A stretch of DNA of 64,000 nucleotides from Pseudobacteriovorax antillogorgiicola (GTDB lineage: Bacteria; Bdellovibrionota_B; Oligoflexia; Oligoflexales; Oligoflexaceae): NCBI RefSeq assembly GCF_900177345.1, contig NZ_FWZT01000003.1, forward strand, positions 186,001 to 250,000. Direction: 5' to 3'. Both the position numbers and the translations under genes were made by a program. The first letter of the stretch is position 1, and the number at the start of each line of letters is the position of its first letter. The notes under the pieces were generated by a model. It searched no databases, had not been told where the DNA came from, and worked only from the letters and a program-made list of their open reading frames with translations. Shown here piece by piece: positions 31,559 to 42,979 of this stretch.

Positions 31559-33691
31559 TTAGCTTGCAGATGCGTGTTCCCCTTCTTCAACGAAGCAATA
31601 TTCAAGCAAGACCTCTTTGAGCTTCTTACGACTGAGAGGCTTTGCAAGAAAGCCAGACATACCTGCATCCAGGCACTGCTGCTTGTCAGACTCAAATGCA
31701 TTCGCTGTCATAGCTACGATTGGTGGTGCCTGATCCCCTAGCATGCCAATGATCCTACGAGTTGCCTCGATACCGTTCATCTTTGGCATTTGCATATCCA
31801 TCAAGACAAGATCGTATCGAGCCTTTTCGATGTATGACAGTGCCTCTAAGCCATTTTTCGCCAGGTCAAAGGCCAGTTTTTCTTTATCCAATATAAGGCT
31901 AATCAGCTGATAATTGGCTTCATTATCTTCAACCACCAAAACTCTAGCCTCCTGCTTCGCATTCAGTGGCCTCCGGCTTTCCAAGGATTGGGCCTTGTCT
32001 GAAAGAACCTTCAGGTTGAGGCTGAACTGAAAGCTACTGCCCTGCCCTTGCACGCTTTGACAGCTAATCTCCGCGCCCATTAATTCAGCAAGACGTTGGG
32101 AAATCACCAGGCCCAGGCCGGTGCCCCCATAGTCACGGCTAATATGACGATTTCCTTGTGAAAATGGCTTGAAAAGCATTTTTTGTTCTTCATCGCTCAT
32201 GCCGATCCCTGAATCGGCTACGGAAAAATGCAAGCCCACCGTTTCACCATCTACATACATCTTTGTTACGGATAGCTTCACAAAGCCTGCTCGGGTAAAT
32301 TTTAAGGCATTACCCATAAAGTTCATGAGGATCTGTTTGATACGGCTGTCGTCCCCCTCTAAAACATCAGGTATGCTTGAATCCAAATCAACCACGAACT
32401 GCAAACCTTTTTCTTCAAGAGGTCCGCGAAACATTTCCGTGATCGAGACAAGCATCGATTTGAATCGAAAGGGCCGAACCACAATCTCAAGTTTTCCAGC
32501 CTCAATTTTAGAGAGATCCAGGATATCATTGATCAGCACCATCAAAGAATCGCTACAGTTCACCACAGTTGATGCCAATCGGCGCTGCTCATCGCTCAGC
32601 TCGGTTTCAAGTAGTAAGTGAGACATTCCTATGATGCCATTTAATGGAGTGCGGATCTCATGGCTCATATTGGCTAGAAACAGGGTTTTCGCATCGTTTG
32701 CCCGCAATGCACGGTTGTGTGACGCGTGAATCTGTTCCAAATAAAGCTCTAGCTTTTTGTCTCGTGCTTCAAAAGCATCCACAAGATGGCCAATCTCATC
32801 ATGTTGAGGGCTCTCTTGCAAGTCATGTTCACCCGCCACAACTTTTTTGTATAGATCCCTGATTGGCTTTGAAATACTTTCTGCTAGTCTGCGTGCCACC
32901 AGTAGGGTAACCACGAGAATCAGCACACCAGAACAAAGAACAACTAAGATGAGTTTGGCAACTGGCTCGATGTAAACCTCTAGGGGCACCAAACCGACGA
33001 CCGTGAGATTGAGTTGACTTAAGAGGCCATCTCCTTCCAATTCAAGTTCGTGGCGAAGCATCCATTTGTCATCGGCACTTGGTCCCACTGCCAAACGTCG
33101 CCCGTTGTGGAGGTACTCATAGTGAAAGCCATCACCGATAGGTGTGGCAGAGTTAAAATAGGGTGCTAGTTTGATTTCGACAACAAGCCCCCCACGAAGT
33201 ATTCCATCCGATCGCACAGGTTGAAATACGATGACGGATTCTAGCCCATTTTTTTCGATACTGAGCAACTGCCTATCTAGGCTGATACCTTGATTGATGT
33301 AGCTTCGCCCTAAAGGCACTCCTTCGTGCTGATCGAAACGATAGATGGATCGCCCACGGTAATCGACAACTTCAACGGCCTGAATTCCTTCGATATCCAT
33401 CACACTAAGGGGGAGACTGACCTGATAGGCCTCTAACCTACTAGGGTTTGTAAGCATCCTTTCTACTTGCGGTGATCGTGCATCACTGTCAACAATATCA
33501 AGAGCCTGATGAATGCGATTTTCAAGAATGACCGTTTGGATCAGGTTTTTTTCCCGAATCGATCTATTGATTTCAGTATCTTTGATGTGAAAAATTAGAA
33601 CAGAAGCCATAAACAGCGTGATCAGCAAGGAAGCTGAAACCAGGAGACTTAAGTGTGAGCTTATTCGCTTTTGGATTCGTCTACTCTGCAC
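31559..33691 (-). CDS. Hybrid sensor histidine kinase with receiver domain
   Basis: A 710-residue membrane kinase. A membrane helix at about 15-33 and one at about 243-266 bracket a periplasmic sensor (about 210 residues, Cache/CHASE-like by pattern), followed by HAMP (266-320), HisKA with [15 protein letters not shown] (His about 343), HATPase (N-box [14 protein letters not shown]1 DSGIGMS, G2 GGTGLGLVI) and a C-terminal receiver ([13 protein letters not shown]; acceptor in [15 protein letters not shown] in LAKPLS). The receiver could pass phosphate to an external HPt. The start is a GTG with a poor ribosome site and is uncertain. Divergent from the CheY-like gene at 34064. Confidence 0.9.
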
Positions 33692-34063
33692 CTAGAATTC
33701 CATGTACCAGATTGTTGTTATGCCGTTCAAAAATATCATCGCCTCAATGGTATCGTCTCTTTTGGCTAGCCTTTGTCGTCGGTAGCCGCAGATCTAACCC
33801 GTTAACATAACGGTTATAATGGCTACAAAGATTTTTTCCGTGGGAGCCCTTTAGCAGCACGCCGATAGCTTTCCTGTCGGTTAGCTATGGTAGTTCATCA
33901 CCAATTTCGATCTAGGTTGTCATGGTTTCGCTAGCTTAGCCTAAAAACTGTATTATTTCAGAATGGTAGAAGACTAACGATTTCGTAAAGTTTGCCTGTA
34001 AAACACCGACAACGGCTAGGTAAGGCAAAAAACAAGGCTGACCTTCGATCAATAGGAGCAATT
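33692..34063. other. Divergent intergenic region with a dyad and -10-like box
   Basis: About 370 bases between the hybrid kinase and the CheY gene. At 33799-33813 the dyad CCGTTA-ACA-TAACGG is followed directly by TATAAT (33815-33820), a perfect -10 sequence. No matching -35 is visible at 16-18 bases, as in activator-dependent promoters. The dyad overlapping the promoter may be an operator. It is 244 bases before the CheY start. Confidence 0.4.
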
Positions 34064-34450
34064 ATGCCAAGCTCGGATGGGAAACTAAGAATCCTGATTG
34101 TCGATGATTCCCCCACGATTCGAAAAAACCTCGTCCAAACCTTAGAAAGCTTCGACTTTGATGTCGTCGCCGCAGCGGATGGCGAAGAAGGTGTCAGTCA
34201 TGTCGCGAAAGATCACGGCATCGATATGGTTATCACGGATGTTCATATGCCCAAGCTTGATGGTATCGAGATGACTCAAAAAATAGTGTCTCAGGGATTT
34301 AATAAACCTATCGTCGTCCTCACTCAGGAGCGACGGGATGAGTTCGTCCAGAAAGCACGTGCTGCAGGAGCTACTGGCTGGATGGTAAAGCCATTTCATC
34401 GGGATGAAGTGATCTCGGTGGTACGTCATGCCCTGAAATTATCTGCCTAA
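34064..34450 (+). CDS. CheY-like single-domain response regulator
   Basis: A 128-residue receiver protein: RILIVDDSPTIRKNLVQTL with the acidic pair, MVITDVHMPKLDGIEM with the acceptor Asp (about 57), VVLTQE with the conserved Thr, and GATGWMVKPFHRDEV with the conserved Lys. There is no output domain, so it could act as CheY on the motor or as a phosphorelay shuttle for the hybrid kinases nearby. The ATG at 34064 has AGGAG 5 bases upstream; the longer frame from 33992 is not supported. It is divergent from the hybrid kinase at 31559-33691 and may belong to the same pathway. Confidence 0.88.
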   Translation: MPSSDGKLRILIVDDSPTIRKNLVQTLESFDFDVVAAADGEEGVSHVAKDHGIDMVITDVHMPKLDGIEMTQKIVSQGFNKPIVVLTQERRDEFVQKARAAGATGWMVKPFHRDEVISVVRHALKLSA

Positions 34451-34539: not shown

Positions 34540-34740
34540 AGGTACCTCGCAGCTCTCAAACTGCGGTGCCCCCAATAGGCTCTTTTGCGCCGTTCAGGTT
34601 TGACAGAATGAAATTCGAATAGGAACCTCATTCATTTCAAGATCTGGGTTTGACTCCTCAATTGGTAGATCGAAAAATGATGGGTTTCCTTAGCAAGACG
34701 TCATAGGGTCCATAGCTTGGCTAAGCTATGGATTTTTTTT
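34540..34740 (+). ncRNA. Candidate non-coding RNA ending at a strong terminator
   Basis: The CheY gene is followed by 533 bases without a gene. TATAAG at 34531-34536 could be a -10, and a GC-rich hairpin (GGTACCTCGCAG and CTGCGGTGCC, 34541-34570) follows it. The segment ends at the intrinsic terminator 34709-34740, 260 bases after the CheY stop. This could be an independent RNA of about 200 bases or a long CheY 3' UTR. No known RNA family is recognised. Entirely predicted. Confidence 0.3.
34709..34740 (+). terminator. Strong intrinsic terminator
   Basis: Perfect 10-bp stem TCCATAGCTT (34709-34718) and AAGCTATGGA (34723-34732), four-base loop, followed by eight T (34733-34740). The best terminator in the window. 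Confidence 0.9.
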
Positions 34741-34983: not shown

Positions 34984-35682
34984 ATGTCTAAAATTTTAGT
35001 CGTTGATGATGTTGTTCAAATGCAGGAATTGGTGATTCAAATTGCAGAAACCCAGGGCATTAAAGGCCATGGGGTTAGCAATAGCCGGAAGGCACTCCAA
35101 TTCCTTCAAGATGTCGATGACATCTCCTTGATCTTTCTTGATATCAACCTTGAAGGTGAATCTGGCTTCAGTTTATGCAAGCGTATCCGTGCCGAGCCCG
35201 AGTTGGCTGATACGAAAATTTGCTTCATCAGCGGTCATCGTGAGAAGCAGTACGTGCTAAAAGCACTATCAGAAGGGGGTAATGACTACCTCATCAAGCC
35301 AATTGACCCTCTTTCTGTAATCGAAAAACTCAATCGCTTTGTCAAAAACAACTCATCCAGTCAATTTGTTTGGTGCGACGCCTCCCTTGTCGCCATTCCC
35401 CAAGGATTTCCCTTCAAGTTGGAGTTGCACGTTCACAAGATCTCGGAAGGAGGATTGAAGTTGACCTCACCAATCGAATTTGAAAAGTCTGCGGTTTTCG
35501 ATCTTGAACTACCATACTTCTCCCGCAAAAAGGGCGAAGGCTGCTTATTCACCTGCGAGATCACACATTGCAAAAAACAAAAACAGAGTTACAACGTCGA
35601 TGTAAATTTTGTCGGGATTTCGGAAAACTTCGCACAGATGATCCGTGAGGAAACCGTCAAACAAGTGCCATTGGAGGATTAA
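34984..35682 (+). CDS. Receiver domain fused to a PilZ-like domain
   Basis: A protein of about 232 residues, first gene of a three-gene operon. The N-terminal receiver (ILVVDDVVQMQE; acceptor in LIFLDINLEGESG, about residue 51; Lys in DYLIKPIDPL) is followed by a C-terminal domain (from about 130) with strands such as FKLELHVHKISEGGLKLTSP, which resembles PilZ. PilZ proteins bind cyclic-di-GMP through an RxxxR and a (D/N)xSxxG motif; only a weak xISEGG-type second motif is visible and the RxxxR is not, so binding is doubtful. ATG at 34984 has GAGGAGG 7 bases upstream. The stop is one base before the next gene's start. Confidence 0.8.
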   Translation: MSKILVVDDVVQMQELVIQIAETQGIKGHGVSNSRKALQFLQDVDDISLIFLDINLEGESGFSLCKRIRAEPELADTKICFISGHREKQYVLKALSEGGNDYLIKPIDPLSVIEKLNRFVKNNSSSQFVWCDASLVAIPQGFPFKLELHVHKISEGGLKLTSPIEFEKSAVFDLELPYFSRKKGEGCLFTCEITHCKKQKQSYNVDVNFVGISENFAQMIREETVKQVPLED

Positions 35683-35683
35683 C

Positions 35684-36484
35684 ATGAGGCTGATTTTCGT
35701 TCTCGCCATATTGGGTTTCAACTTTTCCGCAGAGTCTCGAACGATTAGTTTTGGAATTGTTCCTCAACAGTCGGCCTCCACATTAGCTGAAAAGTGGCTC
35801 CCTATCTGTAAAATTTTAAGTGAGCAAACTGGCCTTGCCATAACATTCAAGACTGCGCCCGACATTCCAACATTCGAGCGTCGATTAGCAGAAGGTGCCT
35901 ATGACTTGGCCTACATGAATCCATATCACTTCGTGACCTTCCACAAGACCCCCGGATATCAGGCCTTAGCCAAGGCCAAGGCCAAGCGAATCAAGGGAAT
36001 TTTGGTAACCCGGAAAAGCAGTCATGTTCATTCTCTCACGGATCTTCAAGGGGCGCGGCTAGCATTCCCATCACCTGCCGCATTTGCCGCTAGTATTCTG
36101 CCTCGATCGGAACTAGCGCAGCAGAAAATTTCATTTTCTCCCCACTACGTTAGCTCCCACGACTCTGTCTATCGAGCAGTTGCCAAAGGCTTGTTTCCGG
36201 CTGGGGGCGGCGTCATACGAACGTTCAATACTATAGACCCTACAATCCGCGAGCATTTAAGAATCGTCTGGACCACCAAGCCATACACCCCTCATGCTAT
36301 CGCAGTAAGGCCAGATATGAGTGATTCCGTTAGAACGAAGCTCCAAAACGCACTTCAAGCCTTAGATACGTCCCCAAAAGGCCGCGATGCTCTCAGTAGC
36401 ATAAGCATCAAGGGCTTCGAAGTAGCACACAATGAAGACTGGGATGATGTGCGAGCACTTGCCATCACCGAAATCAAGCAGTAG
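35684..36484 (+). CDS. PhnD-like periplasmic binding protein
   Basis: A protein of about 266 residues with a short signal peptide (IFVLAILGFNFSAES) and the PhnD/phosphate-phosphonate binding-protein fold: FGIVPQQSASTLAEKWLP, then AYDLAYMNPYHFVTFHK, LTDLQGARLAFPSPAAFAAS and HDSVYRAVAKGLFPAGGG. In this family the ligand is often a phosphonate, phosphite or sulfur oxyanion, and some members work as sensors for a kinase. No ABC permease is nearby. It lies between the receiver-PilZ and hybrid-kinase genes (1 base and 9 bases away), so a ligand-sensing role for the kinase is the likely reading. GGAGG precedes the ATG. Confidence 0.85.
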   Translation: MRLIFVLAILGFNFSAESRTISFGIVPQQSASTLAEKWLPICKILSEQTGLAITFKTAPDIPTFERRLAEGAYDLAYMNPYHFVTFHKTPGYQALAKAKAKRIKGILVTRKSSHVHSLTDLQGARLAFPSPAAFAASILPRSELAQQKISFSPHYVSSHDSVYRAVAKGLFPAGGGVIRTFNTIDPTIREHLRIVWTTKPYTPHAIAVRPDMSDSVRTKLQNALQALDTSPKGRDALSSISIKGFEVAHNEDWDDVRALAITEIKQ

Positions 36485-36493
36485 GTAAACTTT

Positions 36494-38731
36494 ATGTCGT
36501 TTCGATTTAAAACAATCCTCGGAATCGCCACCATCGAGTTCGTCTTGGTTGTCATCTTAGTGGGTAAGAATCTCTTTAACCTTCGAGAACAAGGTGAACA
36601 GGAACTTACCGATCGCGCCCATACTATCGCCAAGCTATTTACCACCATTGCCAAAGATGCTGTCATATCGTACGATCTAGCTACTCTTCAGGATTACGTT
36701 GAGCAGATTACGATCAATGACGATGTTCTATACGCCCGCATCCACAGTTCGCAGGGAGTTTTAGCTCAGTGGGGCCAACGCCAACAGCTCGACAAAACCT
36801 TCCAGGAAGATAGCTCCTTTGAAAGTGTTCAGGATGGTGTTTTTGATGTTAAAGCTGTCATTCATCAAGGAAAAAAGACTTTTGGTGTGGTTGAGTTGGG
36901 GATATCCATGGCTGCCTTTGAGCAGCGCTACACTGAAGCCAAGAATCAAGCTATCAGTATTGCGGTTATGGGCCTTAGTCTATCGGCTCTGTTTTCGTTC
37001 CTGCTAGGCACTATACTGACAGGCCGACTGAAAGATATCCGCGAAGCATCTCGTTCTATAGCTCAAGGAAATTGGGATATCCATATTTCCGAGCGAGGGC
37101 ATGACGAACTGTCTGAAACAGCGCAAGCCTTTAACTACATGTCTCGCAGCTTGCGACATACGGTAACAGATTTAAAGGTACAAATGGCCAAAGCTGACAA
37201 AGCCAATCAGGCGAAAAGCCTTTTTCTTGCCAACTTAAGCCACGAAATCAGAACCCCGCTCAACTCAATTATCGGTTTGACTAGCTTGATCAAGAACGAA
37301 GCCTCCTATGAGGGCGATAAGATCCATAAGATAGAGATGTCGAGCCAGGCACTTCTTGCTCAAGTCAACGACATCCTGGACTTCAGCAAGATTGAGGCCG
37401 GCGAATTCACCCTGGACAAGACCAATTTCAATATCAAGTCTCTGCTTGAAGATACTGCCTCCATCTATAAAGAAAGCATCCAATCAAAAGGACTCGATTA
37501 TAAGGTCAAGGTTCATGAAAGCCTCGATTGTTTTGTGGTGTCAGATATGTATCGTCTCAGGCAAGTGGTGAACAATCTGCTGAGCAATGCCCTGAAATTC
37601 ACCTCCCGTGGTTTCATTGAAGTTCACAGCAAAACTTTGAAGCAGGATGCCACGTCGATCACCTTCGAAGTCTCAGTTCGAGACACAGGAATAGGTATAC
37701 CAACCGCCAAACTTGAGCAGCTTTTTAAACCGTTCTCCCAAGCTGACATCTCCACCACTCGACGCTTTGGAGGCACGGGCTTAGGCCTTTCCATCTGCAA
37801 AGAGATCGTTTCGTTTCTAGGGGGGGAGCTAACGGTCTCAAGCGCCCATAAAGTGGGTTCTAACTTTTCTTTTGCCATCACAGTGCTGAAAGGGGAGGCT
37901 CCGCCAGTAGAAGACGTTCGTCGTGAAGAGGCGACCGCTCCCTTGCGTATCCTCGTCGTTGAAGATAACGAGATGAACCAAGATCTCATGGCAAGTCTGC
38001 TGGACAGTCTTGGCCATGAAGCAGATTTTGCAGAAAATGGTTTGGTAGCGACAGAGAAGTTTAAGGAATCTTCCTACGATCTGGTCTTTATGGATTGCCA
38101 GATGCCGGTCATGGATGGCTTTACCAGTGCGGACAAAATAAGAAGCTACGAGATCGATGCAAACCGCGATCCTGTGCCAATCATCGCTCTAACCGCCAAT
38201 GCCTTAGCGAAGGACAGGCAGCGATGCATTGACATTGGTATGAACGACTATGTCTCTAAACCAGTCACGATCGACACTATCCGAGGAGTTATAGCAAACT
38301 ACGGACCTGAAACATCAGCTGCTGGTAGCTTGACAGCTGAGGTTCAAGAAAAGAAAGACCTACCTCCCCTCGCCAGTGATCATCTCGATCTTAAAGCGAT
38401 CGCGATGCTTCGCTCCCTTTGCACGGATAAGAACCCACACTTTCTTGAAAAGCAGGTGGAGCAGTTCAACAATGCTCTGACGCAAGTCCAGCCAGAATTT
38501 GACCGCTACCTCAAAAGCCAAGACTTTACAGCGCTCAAGGAATCAGCCCATAAGTTCAAGACGTCCTGCGGGATCGTTGGAGCTCGGCAGCTGGTCTCAC
38601 TATGCCAAAAACTCGAAGCATCTTGTATGGAGAAGGATTCTCAGCTGAGCCAGGTCACGATCGATCAAATATCAAGCGAAGGCCCTCAGGTGCAGTCTTA
38701 CCTAGCCGAGGAAGTGAAGCGGGTACTCTAA
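36494..38731 (+). CDS. Hybrid sensor histidine kinase with receiver and HPt domains
   Basis: A 745-residue membrane kinase, last gene of the operon. Membrane helices at about 8-26 and 158-178 bracket a small periplasmic domain (about 130 residues); HAMP, then HisKA with [15 protein letters not shown] (His about 250), HATPase (N-box VVNNLLSNALKFT, G1 DTGIGIP, G2 GGTGLGLSI), receiver (ILVVEDNEMNQDL, acceptor in MDCQMPVMDG about 533) and HPt with ESAHKFKTSCGIVGA (His about 685). It thus contains a full phosphorelay. The upstream PhnD-like protein probably provides the ligand, as in LuxPQ/BctC-type systems, and the receiver-PilZ protein may be the output; both are inferences from gene order. Confidence 0.9.
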   Translation: MSFRFKTILGIATIEFVLVVILVGKNLFNLREQGEQELTDRAHTIAKLFTTIAKDAVISYDLATLQDYVEQITINDDVLYARIHSSQGVLAQWGQRQQLDKTFQEDSSFESVQDGVFDVKAVIHQGKKTFGVVELGISMAAFEQRYTEAKNQAISIAVMGLSLSALFSFLLGTILTGRLKDIREASRSIAQGNWDIHISERGHDELSETAQAFNYMSRSLRHTVTDLKVQMAKADKANQAKSLFLANLSHEIRTPLNSIIGLTSLIKNEASYEGDKIHKIEMSSQALLAQVNDILDFSKIEAGEFTLDKTNFNIKSLLEDTASIYKESIQSKGLDYKVKVHESLDCFVVSDMYRLRQVVNNLLSNALKFTSRGFIEVHSKTLKQDATSITFEVSVRDTGIGIPTAKLEQLFKPFSQADISTTRRFGGTGLGLSICKEIVSFLGGELTVSSAHKVGSNFSFAITVLKGEAPPVEDVRREEATAPLRILVVEDNEMNQDLMASLLDSLGHEADFAENGLVATEKFKESSYDLVFMDCQMPVMDGFTSADKIRSYEIDANRDPVPIIALTANALAKDRQRCIDIGMNDYVSKPVTIDTIRGVIANYGPETSAAGSLTAEVQEKKDLPPLASDHLDLKAIAMLRSLCTDKNPHFLEKQVEQFNNALTQVQPEFDRYLKSQDFTALKESAHKFKTSCGIVGARQLVSLCQKLEASCMEKDSQLSQVTIDQISSEGPQVQSYLAEEVKRVL

Positions 38732-39097: not shown

Positions 39098-39844
39098 TCA
39101 CAATTTTTGATATCGCCGCTGGAGCTTTCGATATCTTCCGTCTTTTCTGATGACTTCAAGGCCACGATTGAAGCGTTCGATGATGAATTGGTGATTCTTA
39201 TGCTGTTTTGAGGCCGCGAAATAAAGCTTCTGCACTTGAAACGGCGGATCAAGAACTTCAATGCGCCTCCTTTCCGCTACCGAAAATTTGTGCTGTAATT
39301 CGTGCTGAATCCAAGCTGTACTTCCCACGAACAGATCTATGCGATTTGCCAATAGCTTCTTCAGGTTCATCCCATTGTTTTGAGACTCCTCCACGGGAAT
39401 CCCAAGCTTTCGCAAGTCGGTGGCCAATGAAGTACCGTTCTGAACTCCAACGTAGTATGCCTTTAGCATCTCCATATCCCAACGAAGATGTTTCTCCCTA
39501 AGAGCAAAAAAGTTCACAGGCACGTTTTCCATTGGTATCGAATAGTCGAGATAGTGGCTCCGCTCTTCACTAAAAAAGCAGCCTATCAGCCCATCGACCT
39601 GCCCTTCCTCGGCTTCCCTTAAGGCCCGTTTTAAGGGGAAAAACTTATAGTGGACTTCGATTCCAGTGACTTCAAACGCGAGCTTGGTGATCGCTGCCAA
39701 GGAGCCAAAGTCGGAAGCTGTTTCATCCACATAGGGAAGGTAGCTGAAAGCGCCTATAGTAAGGTGTTTCACGGCACTTTCAGCAACAAGGCGGTGGGGC
39801 ATCAATAGCAGAAAGAATAGAGGAGCCACTGCGATTATTGGCAT
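39098..39844 (-). CDS. Orphan family 3 periplasmic binding protein
   Basis: A 248-residue protein with a signal peptide (FFLLLMPHRLVAES) and the family 3 solute-binding pattern: LTIGAFSYLPYVDETASDFG, ALREAEEGQVDGLIGCFFSEER, YYVGVQNGTSL and the closing FNRGLEVIRKDGRYRKLQRRY. Related proteins bind amino acids. There is no permease in the window. It shares only the general fold with the other orphan at 7177-7941. The start has GGAAAG at a long distance, so it is slightly uncertain. Confidence 0.75.
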   Translation of the reverse strand: MPIIAVAPLFFLLLMPHRLVAESAVKHLTIGAFSYLPYVDETASDFGSLAAITKLAFEVTGIEVHYKFFPLKRALREAEEGQVDGLIGCFFSEERSHYLDYSIPMENVPVNFFALREKHLRWDMEMLKAYYVGVQNGTSLATDLRKLGIPVEESQNNGMNLKKLLANRIDLFVGSTAWIQHELQHKFSVAERRRIEVLDPPFQVQKLYFAASKQHKNHQFIIERFNRGLEVIRKDGRYRKLQRRYQKL

Positions 39845-39896: not shown

Positions 39897-42656
39897 TCAT
39901 CCAGTGTTTCTCAAGCCACTTGCAATTGCATTGATTGTGACAAGAAGATTTTCTAGCAAGGCGCTAGCCTCATCCTTGCTAAGGTCGTCACGTCGCCAGC
40001 GAGCCAACTGATCCAACTGCCGATCGTGGAGAAAGCGCAAACCATGGTCCCGTAAAGCGATCGTTCGAACCACGTACGGGCGACGACTTTCAATATCGCT
40101 TCCAAATAGCTCCTTGAGCATAAAATTTGTCCGCCGGAACTCTTGGGTCACCAAGCCCATGAAGTAGTCTCTTATCCCTTGATCTGTGACAAGAGCCCCA
40201 TAGCGAGCCATGATCTCTTCGTTCGCAGATGCCACGGTTGTTTCCACATTATGCATGACATAGTTAAGCAGATCAAATTCGCCGAGTTTATTCTTAACAA
40301 GGTCAAACTGCTCTGGCATTCTCTTTTTCAATGTTTCCAATGCCGTTCCTACACCATACCAACTAGGAAGGTAGAAGCGAGCTTGATTCCATGAAAACAC
40401 CCAGGGGATCGCCCGCAGATCTTCGATCGTCGCTTGCCCAGTTCGTTTCGGTGGCCGGCTGCCAATCCTCGATTGCTCTAGCACATCAATAGGTGTCGCT
40501 TGCCTGAAAAATACTGGAAAGTCCTTATGGGTGACCAGTTCGCGATATGTTTTGTTACTAATCTCTGATAAGGAGCTCATAAACTCTCGAAACTCTGCCG
40601 GTAGCGGCTGACGAGACCCTGCGGTAAGGCTTTCATAGGCGAAGCTCGCCTGCAAAAGCTCCACATTGTATACCGCTGTTGCAAAGTTTGCGTACTTGCG
40701 AGAGATGGTTTCTCCCTGCTCCGTCATCCTAAACTGGCCATTGATGGTGCTCGGTGGCAAGGCTCTAAAAAAGCGATTAATGGGGCCAGCACCGCGGCTC
40801 ACTGTGCCTCCTCGGCCATGGAAAAAGCAAAGGGCAATGCCTTGCTTTTTAGCTACTTTAGCAAGGCTTTCCTGAGCCTGGTAAAGGTGCCACTGGCTCG
40901 CTAGAATCCCTCCATCCTTGCTGCTATCACTGTAGCCGACCATGACCTGCTGTTGGGGTTGTACCAGTCCCCTTTGTTTTTGTTGGTAGCGCAGGCTAGC
41001 CTGGGTCATGGGATGGGCTAAAAAGTCCTCCATGATCTCTGGGCTGGCTTTAAGATCGTCAATGGTTTCAAACAGCGGCACCACCTGAAGTGGGCACACC
41101 AACTGGCCGCCTTCCAGCTTTGCAAGCCCTGATTCACGGGCTAAGAGATAAACGGTAAACAGATCACCGGCATTTCTCGTCATACTGACAATCAGTGAGC
41201 CCAGGCCGTCGATCCCATACCGTTCCTGGTGATCTTGCAAAACCCTAAAGGTGTTCAAAACCTCGTTCAAAGGGGCGCTGTGCTCCTGGGTAGATATGGC
41301 AAAGGGCCGTTTGATATCAAGTTCCCCTTGAATGGTCTGAGCTAAGAGTTCTGGTGATGGCTCTGATTGAAAACCATTCCTACCAGATAGTTCTAGCAGC
41401 TGAAGCAAGGCCTTCTGGTAAACACTTGAGTTTTGCCTCACATCAAGTTTAGCGGAATGAAAGCCATAGATCTGAGCTGCACGAATTGCATTCCGCAATT
41501 CGTGATTGATAATCTGATGAGCATTGATCTCATCGAGGCTTTCTGCAAGGACTCCGAGATCTTCCAGCAACTCACTCACATTGCGATATGAATGGGGTCG
41601 ATCGTCTAACTGTGTCGCATGATTTCGGATCACCTGTATTGGCAAACGCTCGATCATAAGGCTTACCAAGATACGCCAGCTTTCGCCAGGATTTCGCTGC
41701 TCGGCCAGCTGGCTTTCTTCAGGTAGCGTTTCGCGATAGCTAGCCAAACGATCCTGCAAAACTGAAGGTACTTTCTGGATCGAATCTGCTAAACTCGCCT
41801 TCTTAGCTAAATCTACCAACCGATGACGAATCACAATCAAGGCATTGAGTCGAAGATCAACCAGGGACTGCTGACTGACTTGCGAAGTGACAAATGGATG
41901 ACCATCACGATCTCCACCGACCCATGTTCCAAGTGATAAGGATGGAAAGTCCTTGGCAAGAACGCTGGGGCTTGATTGGAACCCTGCTAGCTGCCAGGCA
42001 GTTTCATAGCGACGATCCAGTCGCGGCAATATCTCAGGGAAGACGTTCTTTAAGTAATGCATCATGTTTCGACGCTCAGATGCTACATCGGGCCGTTCCA
42101 TCACAATCTCTCCGGTTCGCCAGAGACGCTCTAAAACCGCTTTAATTTCGTCGCGGAGCCAGGCCTGTTCCATCGACGACCACATTTGATTTTCCCGCTT
42201 AACCAAGAGCAGATATAAATCGCGATGGTGCTCCAAAACTGTAGCTCGCTTCGCCTCCGTCGGATGAGCCGTGAGCACAATCTCAGTGTGAAGGCGGCGC
42301 ATCATATCCGTTACTGCCCCATGAGATACGCCCTGCTTCTTCAGTCGTTGCAGCCGATCCGGCCAAAGCCCCTTTTCAGCTTGTAATCCGTCATCGTCTT
42401 GAGCACTTCGCCGCATTTGAACCATGACATTCTCTTCCACCATGTTAAGGAGCTGAAAGGATATGGAAAGAAGTTGAGTCAACTTGTCGATGGATGGATA
42501 TGATTCCGGTTCATGCTGCTCCCCCAACTTAGAATCAGGGTGCCAGGGTAAATAGTAGGCAAGCTGCTCTTGCCCTAAACTGGACAGGACTTCATGAAAG
42601 CACGAGATCAGATAAGATAGATCCTGCTCGAATTTTTCAGAGCTAATGGGAGCCAA
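39897..42656 (-). CDS. ppc: Phosphoenolpyruvate carboxylase
   Basis: A 919-residue enzyme that carboxylates phosphoenolpyruvate with bicarbonate to oxaloacetate, an anaplerotic step feeding the TCA cycle. Seen: the catalytic His motif LTAHPTEAKR (about residue 130), the GYSDSSKDGGILASQW loop, the FFHGRGGTVSRGAGP motif and the C-terminal LRNTG, a hallmark of the family. The start is the TTG at 42656 with a near-perfect Shine-Dalgarno (AAGGAGGTG, 5 bases upstream); the longer frame to 42752 adds 32 residues without a good site. Length and motifs are as in bacterial PEPC (E. coli 883). Cytoplasmic homotetramer, usually allosterically controlled. Confidence 0.95.
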   Translation of the reverse strand: MAPISSEKFEQDLSYLISCFHEVLSSLGQEQLAYYLPWHPDSKLGEQHEPESYPSIDKLTQLLSISFQLLNMVEENVMVQMRRSAQDDDGLQAEKGLWPDRLQRLKKQGVSHGAVTDMMRRLHTEIVLTAHPTEAKRATVLEHHRDLYLLLVKRENQMWSSMEQAWLRDEIKAVLERLWRTGEIVMERPDVASERRNMMHYLKNVFPEILPRLDRRYETAWQLAGFQSSPSVLAKDFPSLSLGTWVGGDRDGHPFVTSQVSQQSLVDLRLNALIVIRHRLVDLAKKASLADSIQKVPSVLQDRLASYRETLPEESQLAEQRNPGESWRILVSLMIERLPIQVIRNHATQLDDRPHSYRNVSELLEDLGVLAESLDEINAHQIINHELRNAIRAAQIYGFHSAKLDVRQNSSVYQKALLQLLELSGRNGFQSEPSPELLAQTIQGELDIKRPFAISTQEHSAPLNEVLNTFRVLQDHQERYGIDGLGSLIVSMTRNAGDLFTVYLLARESGLAKLEGGQLVCPLQVVPLFETIDDLKASPEIMEDFLAHPMTQASLRYQQKQRGLVQPQQQVMVGYSDSSKDGGILASQWHLYQAQESLAKVAKKQGIALCFFHGRGGTVSRGAGPINRFFRALPPSTINGQFRMTEQGETISRKYANFATAVYNVELLQASFAYESLTAGSRQPLPAEFREFMSSLSEISNKTYRELVTHKDFPVFFRQATPIDVLEQSRIGSRPPKRTGQATIEDLRAIPWVFSWNQARFYLPSWYGVGTALETLKKRMPEQFDLVKNKLGEFDLLNYVMHNVETTVASANEEIMARYGALVTDQGIRDYFMGLVTQEFRRTNFMLKELFGSDIESRRPYVVRTIALRDHGLRFLHDRQLDQLARWRRDDLSKDEASALLENLLVTINAIASGLRNTG

Positions 42657-42979
42657 TAGACACCTCCTTAATGACAGCATGAGACCAAATGGCAAACTCA
42701 ATCTAGAGAACTTCCCCACTATTGTCCACGAACCAATCGAGATGCATGCCACCTTTCTAGCGTGCTTTTACCATCGTGTTGGACCGAGACATCAAAAATT
42801 ACCCATGTTGGATTCCTTTGCGCCTCGTTTAAATCTTAGTCGGGCAAGCCTGACTTGTCGGTAAAACTATTCGCCACTTAGGGAGGGCCTGAGCCTTGCA
42901 TGCAATAACAGCCGGAGGGACGGTATTTTCTTCCGTATTATTCAATACTTACAAAATTGTAAGAAGCGAAGGAGGGGAC
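42657..42979. other. Divergent intergenic region
   Basis: About 320 bases between ppc and the L-domain lipoprotein, transcribed in opposite directions, so two promoters are expected. AGGAGGGGAC directly upstream of ATG 42980 is the ribosome site. No coding frame or strong hairpin seen. Confidence 0.4.

Follow-up and report, generated by a model that had tools for sequence, protein, structure and literature searches.

A PhnD-fold binder, a hybrid phosphorelay kinase and a receiver-PilZ protein in one transporter-free operon, probably an arm of a signalling network

An ORF scan of the window (the whole 64,000-nucleotide stretch of Pseudobacteriovorax antillogorgiicola DNA analysed here) delineated three adjacent + strand genes separated by 1 and 9 bases, and the coordinates and tight spacing proposed in an earlier note on this DNA were confirmed (Table 1). 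The first product combines a receiver with a PilZ domain (RR-PilZ; Pfam Response_reg 5.2e-21, PilZ 1.5e-6), the second is a periplasmic binder (Phosphonate-bd PF12974, 2.8e-64), and the third is a hybrid histidine kinase in which HAMP, HisKA, HATPase_c, Response_reg and Hpt each score over their cut-offs. The residues of a four-step phosphorelay are complete (H250, D534 and H686 in the kinase, D8/D9/D53/S83/K105 in RR-PilZ), and the earlier domain calls, including that of a full phosphorelay kinase, stand. No ABC transporter gene adjoins the trio in the window. The terminator-like hairpin between the operon and the upstream CheY-type gene is suggestive of a boundary on that side, the terminator scan finding no more such sites in the window than in its shuffles. 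Just upstream of the operon, a hybrid histidine kinase gene (31559-33691, -) and the CheY-type receiver gene (33992-34450, +) are mutually divergent. On the other side lies a gene for a second binder-type protein, SBP_bac_3 (39098-39844, -), which has no adjacent transporter and adjoins a phosphoenolpyruvate carboxylase-like gene (39897-42752). The stretch around the operon holds several signalling genes apparently without mutual linkage.

Table 1. Coordinates of the operon and its features in the window
Feature	Position	Strand	Remarks
Terminator-like hairpin with T tail	34705..34736	+	14 pairs; between upstream CheY-type gene and operon
RR-PilZ gene	34984..35682	+	232 aa from ATG behind GAGGAGGTG; ORF scan, Pfam
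RR-PilZ receiver domain	34993-35331	+	D53 codon at 35140
RR-PilZ degenerate PilZ domain	35419-35646	+	without RxxxR or [DN]xSxxG
PhnD-fold periplasmic binder	35684..36484	+	266 aa; apparent signal peptide; pocket unlike PhnD/AioX
Hybrid histidine kinase	36494..38731	+	745 aa; TM-cache-TM-HAMP-HisKA-HATPase-REC-HPt
Kinase periplasmic single cache-like domain	36575..36949	+	conserved partner of binder
Kinase REC-HPt tail	37934..38728	+	D534 at 38093, H686 at 38549

A search with the binder fetched 80 loci encoding relatives of 46-61% identity, nearly all from Gammaproteobacteria and some from Betaproteobacteria. At 79 of them (the exception being locus L050) the binder is followed by a protein with a matching periplasmic cache domain, the first about 175 residues of the next gene product aligning with the window kinase over its periplasmic part. 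The window's own genome has a second binder-kinase pair on contig C16, and the kin genomes G001 and G035 have one pair each. A profile built from the cache domain alone gave 23 strong matches in 21 genomes, 22 of them directly beside a binder, a proportion conditional on these genomes having been picked for having one. The remaining match, the orphan cache kinase L168 of Vibrio tapetis, has no binder nearby and adjoins exopolysaccharide genes.

The output behind the conserved cache domain is not constant: a plain kinase occurs at 43 of the 80 loci, a hybrid kinase at 30 and a PAS-GGDEF diguanylate cyclase at 4, while 2 loci have some other output and 1 has none. Across 41 non-redundant plain-kinase loci, binder distances correlated with cache distances when the kinase core was controlled for (partial r 0.62, 0/2000 permutations), and the correlation of the binder with the kinase core given the cache was -0.02. 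The cache and the core are encoded by a single gene and have the same species history, so this result indicates the cache domain as the binder's contact. The binder and the cache domain are very likely a dedicated pair, and sensor and kinase together make up a widespread signalling unit with the binder as its dedicated co-receptor. The suggestion in the earlier note that the binder signals through the kinase is very probably right given the pairing, the co-variation and the lack of nearby transporters (below). Its question of whether the trio is conserved has a divided answer, since the binder is kept with a cache-domain partner at nearly all of the fetched loci and the full trio occurs in three genomes of one order only.

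The cache domain was predicted with a pLDDT of 90, and its fold is closest to LapD-type and WalK cache domains, with the LapD-type CdgS9 among the best experimental fold relatives. Assignment of the kinase sensor to CHASE8 or another named Pfam domain was rejected, as the matches are weak (CHASE8 in 8/61 and sCache_3_2 in 23/61 members). Two surroundings were also recorded: at L181 (4061-6481, +), a cache-domain hybrid kinase without a binder immediately follows genes for exopolysaccharide export and precedes a sigma-54 regulator, and near the second binder-kinase pair of P. antillogorgiicola (L127, 4896-8118, +) there are transposase-like fragments and a reverse transcriptase of the group II intron type.

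The absence of an ABC transporter, which the earlier note had read from the window, extends to the relatives. In the 6 kb around each of the 80 binders there is no ORF that has both a Walker A and an ABC signature motif. PhnC/PhnE-type genes, which the earlier note had named as a refutation of its reading, are absent beside the binder in the window and, within 6 kb, beside these relatives, and a transport role was rejected. On plasmids of Vibrio and Salinivibrio, the gene after a binder relative of 53% identity encodes an ‘ATP-binding protein’ as long as a kinase. As a control, a distant PhnD (25% identity) from an Agrobacterium plasmid has phnC on one side and phnE on the other. Against the curated PhnD model TIGR03431, the window binder scored 89.8 bits, below the cut-off of 261.1, and no PhnE in its own genome exceeded its cut-off (best permease 43.4 vs 216.7 bits). 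We conclude that the binder almost certainly has no transport role. The third PF12974 match of the genome (C3:291091) was set aside as a TAXI-type TRAP receptor unrelated to the binder-kinase system; at L130 (5405-9838), also in the window's own genome, a TAXI-type TRAP receptor and a fused TRAP permease adjoin a divergent histidine kinase.

The binder model (pLDDT 93) matches the folds of ArrX, PtxB and PhnD. The pocket residues common to AioX and PhnD are Ser161, Ser163, His192, Tyr88 and Tyr131 in AioX numbering (PMC5908839), and profile alignments to PtxB and ArrX, that is, a sequence alignment and not superposed coordinates, map them to A133, A135, H159, I61 and I103 of the window binder. 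The Ser-x-Ser is replaced by A133-F134-A135 and both tyrosines by I61 and I103, while the histidine is kept as H159. Among 84 binders, these states are close to fixed (Ala133 in 81, Ala135 in 77, and I/V61, I/L103 and His159 in all 84), and the position of AioX Cys106 is Asn79 in 84/84. The residues Y77, M78, N79, Y81, H82, H159, T202 and H204 are invariant and, as aligned, mark a putative different conserved site. On this alignment the phosphate-holding side of the pocket is changed, and a change of ligand class relative to PhnD and AioX is likely. With the oxyanion pocket mostly lost, the ligand is probably not phosphonate. The label ‘PhnD-like’ therefore holds for the fold and is probably misleading on the ligand, the pocket residues being replaced. 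An ordinary phosphonate or phosphite binder that serves an ABC importer encoded elsewhere and signals in addition would account for the strong PF12974 match, the PhnD/PtxB/ArrX-type folds and the presence of permeases with weak PhnE similarity in the genome; however, none of these permeases reaches the PhnE cut-off, transporter genes are absent near all 80 relatives, and the Ser-x-Ser and both tyrosines are replaced, which leaves this reading very improbable. Annotation pipelines label these binders as phosphonate transporter subunits, whereas the evidence points to sensors, probably with a different ligand.

A motif search found neither RxxxR nor [DN]xSxxG anywhere in the RR-PilZ protein, and the four close orthologues have neither c-di-GMP motif in their aligned PilZ regions, which bears out the earlier remark that the PilZ domain has no clear RxxxR. 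These motif absences make it quite likely that the PilZ output is independent of c-di-GMP; if true, it would be unusual for a phosphorelay to have as its output a PilZ domain devoid of these motifs. A PilZ domain that still reads c-di-GMP through other residues, so that the output depends on it, would fit the recognition of the domain by Pfam and the location of related binder loci among GGDEF, EAL and HD-GYP regulators, but in view of the missing motifs we consider it improbable. The genome (G000, 7.3 Mb) has 24 PilZ-domain matches.

Close full-length RR-PilZ orthologues were found in four of the 58 phylum genomes searched, namely G000 itself and G001, G035 and G014. The latter three have 32-35% identity to the window protein, and weaker relatives, of at most 28% identity, have a scattered distribution. 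The RR-PilZ genes of G001 and G035 each adjoin the binder gene in divergent orientation. G014 gave no binder match; its RR-PilZ gene lies 3.9 kb from a hybrid kinase gene directly behind an H-NOX gene. All four are near a kinase with the REC-HPt tail seen in the window kinase, a binder kinase in three genomes and an H-NOX kinase in one, which indirectly supports the receiver-PilZ protein as the output, as had been proposed. Gene linkage alone cannot show HPt-receiver specificity, and that RR-PilZ is the phospho-acceptor of the relay is fairly probable. Alternatively, only the binder and kinase would form a sensor pair, with RR-PilZ a mere neighbour answering another kinase and the HPt feeding other regulators, such as a small receiver common to G035 and G014 (51% identity) that lies beside the kinase or RR-PilZ. 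Most binder loci, including the C16 pair of the same genome, have no RR-PilZ beside them, the promoters in G001 and G035 are divergent, and the small receiver accompanies the module in two genomes, all of which would suit a neighbour. However, the four close orthologues all lie near this HPt subfamily despite the changed input, and RR-PilZ is the first gene of the tight operon in the window, so we regard the neighbour reading as unlikely and RR-PilZ as the better candidate acceptor.

A search of these four genomes with the REC-HPt tail of the window kinase gave six best non-self matches of 171-205 bits, the next being at 107 bits. These six are three binder kinases and three H-NOX-adjacent kinases, and by this sequence comparison the closest relatives of the tail in the four genomes are binder kinases and H-NOX kinases only. 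In P. antillogorgiicola, contig C21 encodes an H-NOX kinase with the same type of tail, preceded by a receiver that is one of the nearest relatives of the receiver in RR-PilZ. Together with the RR-PilZ linkage, the tail matches indicate that the regulator stays with the tail, whether the input is a binder or H-NOX. Because the H-NOX-linked kinases carry the same kind of tail, the binder arm and the nitric-oxide (NO) kinase may converge on the same or sister regulators, which we put at close to an even chance. The earlier description of the trio as a ‘complete, self-contained’ pathway is not supported: the trio is confined to three genomes of one order with RR-PilZ divergent in two, the G014 RR-PilZ is paired with an H-NOX kinase and no binder, and the window's own genome has another binder-kinase pair as well as an H-NOX kinase that bears this tail. 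The trio is a signalling pathway and looks like one arm of an Hno-type two-input network. A literature search returned no paper combining H-NOX, phosphonate, histidine kinase and periplasmic.

A parallel exists in Gammaproteobacteria. Of the 43 plain binder kinases, 16 have REC-HTH_17 genes nearby, 26 REC-HD-GYP, 23 GGDEF-EAL and 12 H-NOX genes, the first three types resembling HnoC, HnoD and HnoB. In Shewanella oneidensis, HnoK, which is served by H-NOX, and HnoS share the regulators HnoC, HnoD and HnoB, and the signal of HnoS is unknown but is not NO (PMC6335343). The hno cluster of G140, taken to be S. oneidensis MR-1, has no binder and no matching cache domain. It has a FIST-type protein and other kinases, and HnoS was rejected as an orthologue of the binder kinase. 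Because that cluster lacks a binder, we view the binder pair as an alternative occupant of the same network place and not as HnoS; what resembles Hno is the layout. On the mobilizable Vibrio coralliilyticus plasmid pOCN014 (L263, 3253-11748), H-NOX, binder, kinase, Hpt, HD-GYP and EAL genes lie within 10 kb, an apparently whole network on a mobilizable element, and such networks can therefore move between strains. In many marine bacteria the binder is encoded among regulators of the H-NOX, HD-GYP and EAL types, and this position makes its ligand a candidate second signal weighed against nitric oxide in biofilm decisions, and this gene context makes ligand hunting direct.

Taking the computed anatomy, pair conservation, co-variation, transporter absence, pocket-motif loss, shared tail and gene linkage as a whole, the operon is probably best explained as a binder-fed arm of a signalling network with RR-PilZ as its output. 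The binder would capture a small periplasmic molecule, probably neither phosphonate nor phosphate, and would dock on the hybrid kinase, at its cache domain, rather than on a transporter. Docking may alter the flow of phosphate from H250 to D534 to H686, and the HPt would then phosphorylate D53 of RR-PilZ, whose PilZ domain would act through protein contact and not by reading c-di-GMP. The nitric-oxide arm would feed the same response regulators as the binder arm, or sisters of them, in the manner of HnoK and HnoS in Shewanella. Counting against this explanation, RR-PilZ is kept with the binder in only three genomes, divergently in two, and the binder L050 and the cache kinase L168 each have no partner nearby. 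More broadly, we tentatively suggest that a PhnD-derived binder clade might have given up oxyanion binding and become the receptor for the second, non-NO input of Hno-type networks, with a c-di-GMP-independent PilZ output in the window lineage and two interchangeable inputs on one REC-HPt/RR-PilZ module.

Binder-fed membrane receptors are already known as a kind, and output shuffling has been described for such receptors, including AioX-AioS and XAC2383-XAC2382. New as far as we have checked are the altered-pocket clade, RR-PilZ as a fixed partner and a REC-HPt tail held in common with H-NOX kinases. The Xanthomonas citri pair XAC2383-XAC2382, for which PMC10380989 cites Teixeira et al. (2018, J Biol Chem 293:10767), is reportedly a PhnD-fold periplasmic protein and a cache-domain membrane protein without a transporter, the output of XAC2382 being reportedly a diguanylate cyclase and XAC2383 being said to prefer phosphate compounds. 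The likeness to our pair lies in a binder beside a cache-domain membrane protein, swappable outputs and the missing transporter, whereas the output here is a hybrid HPt kinase with RR-PilZ. The window binder resembles XAC2383 (5ub3) in fold (TM 0.79), and the sequence profile match is not significant (E 0.08). In NspS-MbaA, LuxP-LuxQ and TorT-TorS, a periplasmic binder is likewise the co-receptor of a membrane signalling protein, but these systems differ from the trio in binder family and sensor domain. The Hno system of S. oneidensis (PMC6335343) has two kinases, one of them H-NOX-served, on common regulators, an arrangement that the window lineage may share, and many gammaproteobacterial binder kinases lie among HnoC-, HnoD- and HnoB-like genes and H-NOX; it differs in the binder-less cluster of G140 and in that RR-PilZ is the regulator in the window lineage. 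AioXSR, ArxXSR and ArrXSR (PMC5908839) are three-gene clusters of a PhnD-like sensor, a histidine kinase and a response regulator, and ArrX ranks with the top matches of the window binder in both sequence and fold. Unlike those sensors, the window binder has lost the pocket Ser and Tyr residues and has Asn at the AioX Cys106 position; the regulator there is AtoC/CitB-like and here a PilZ protein, and arsenic enzyme genes do not adjoin the operon in the window.
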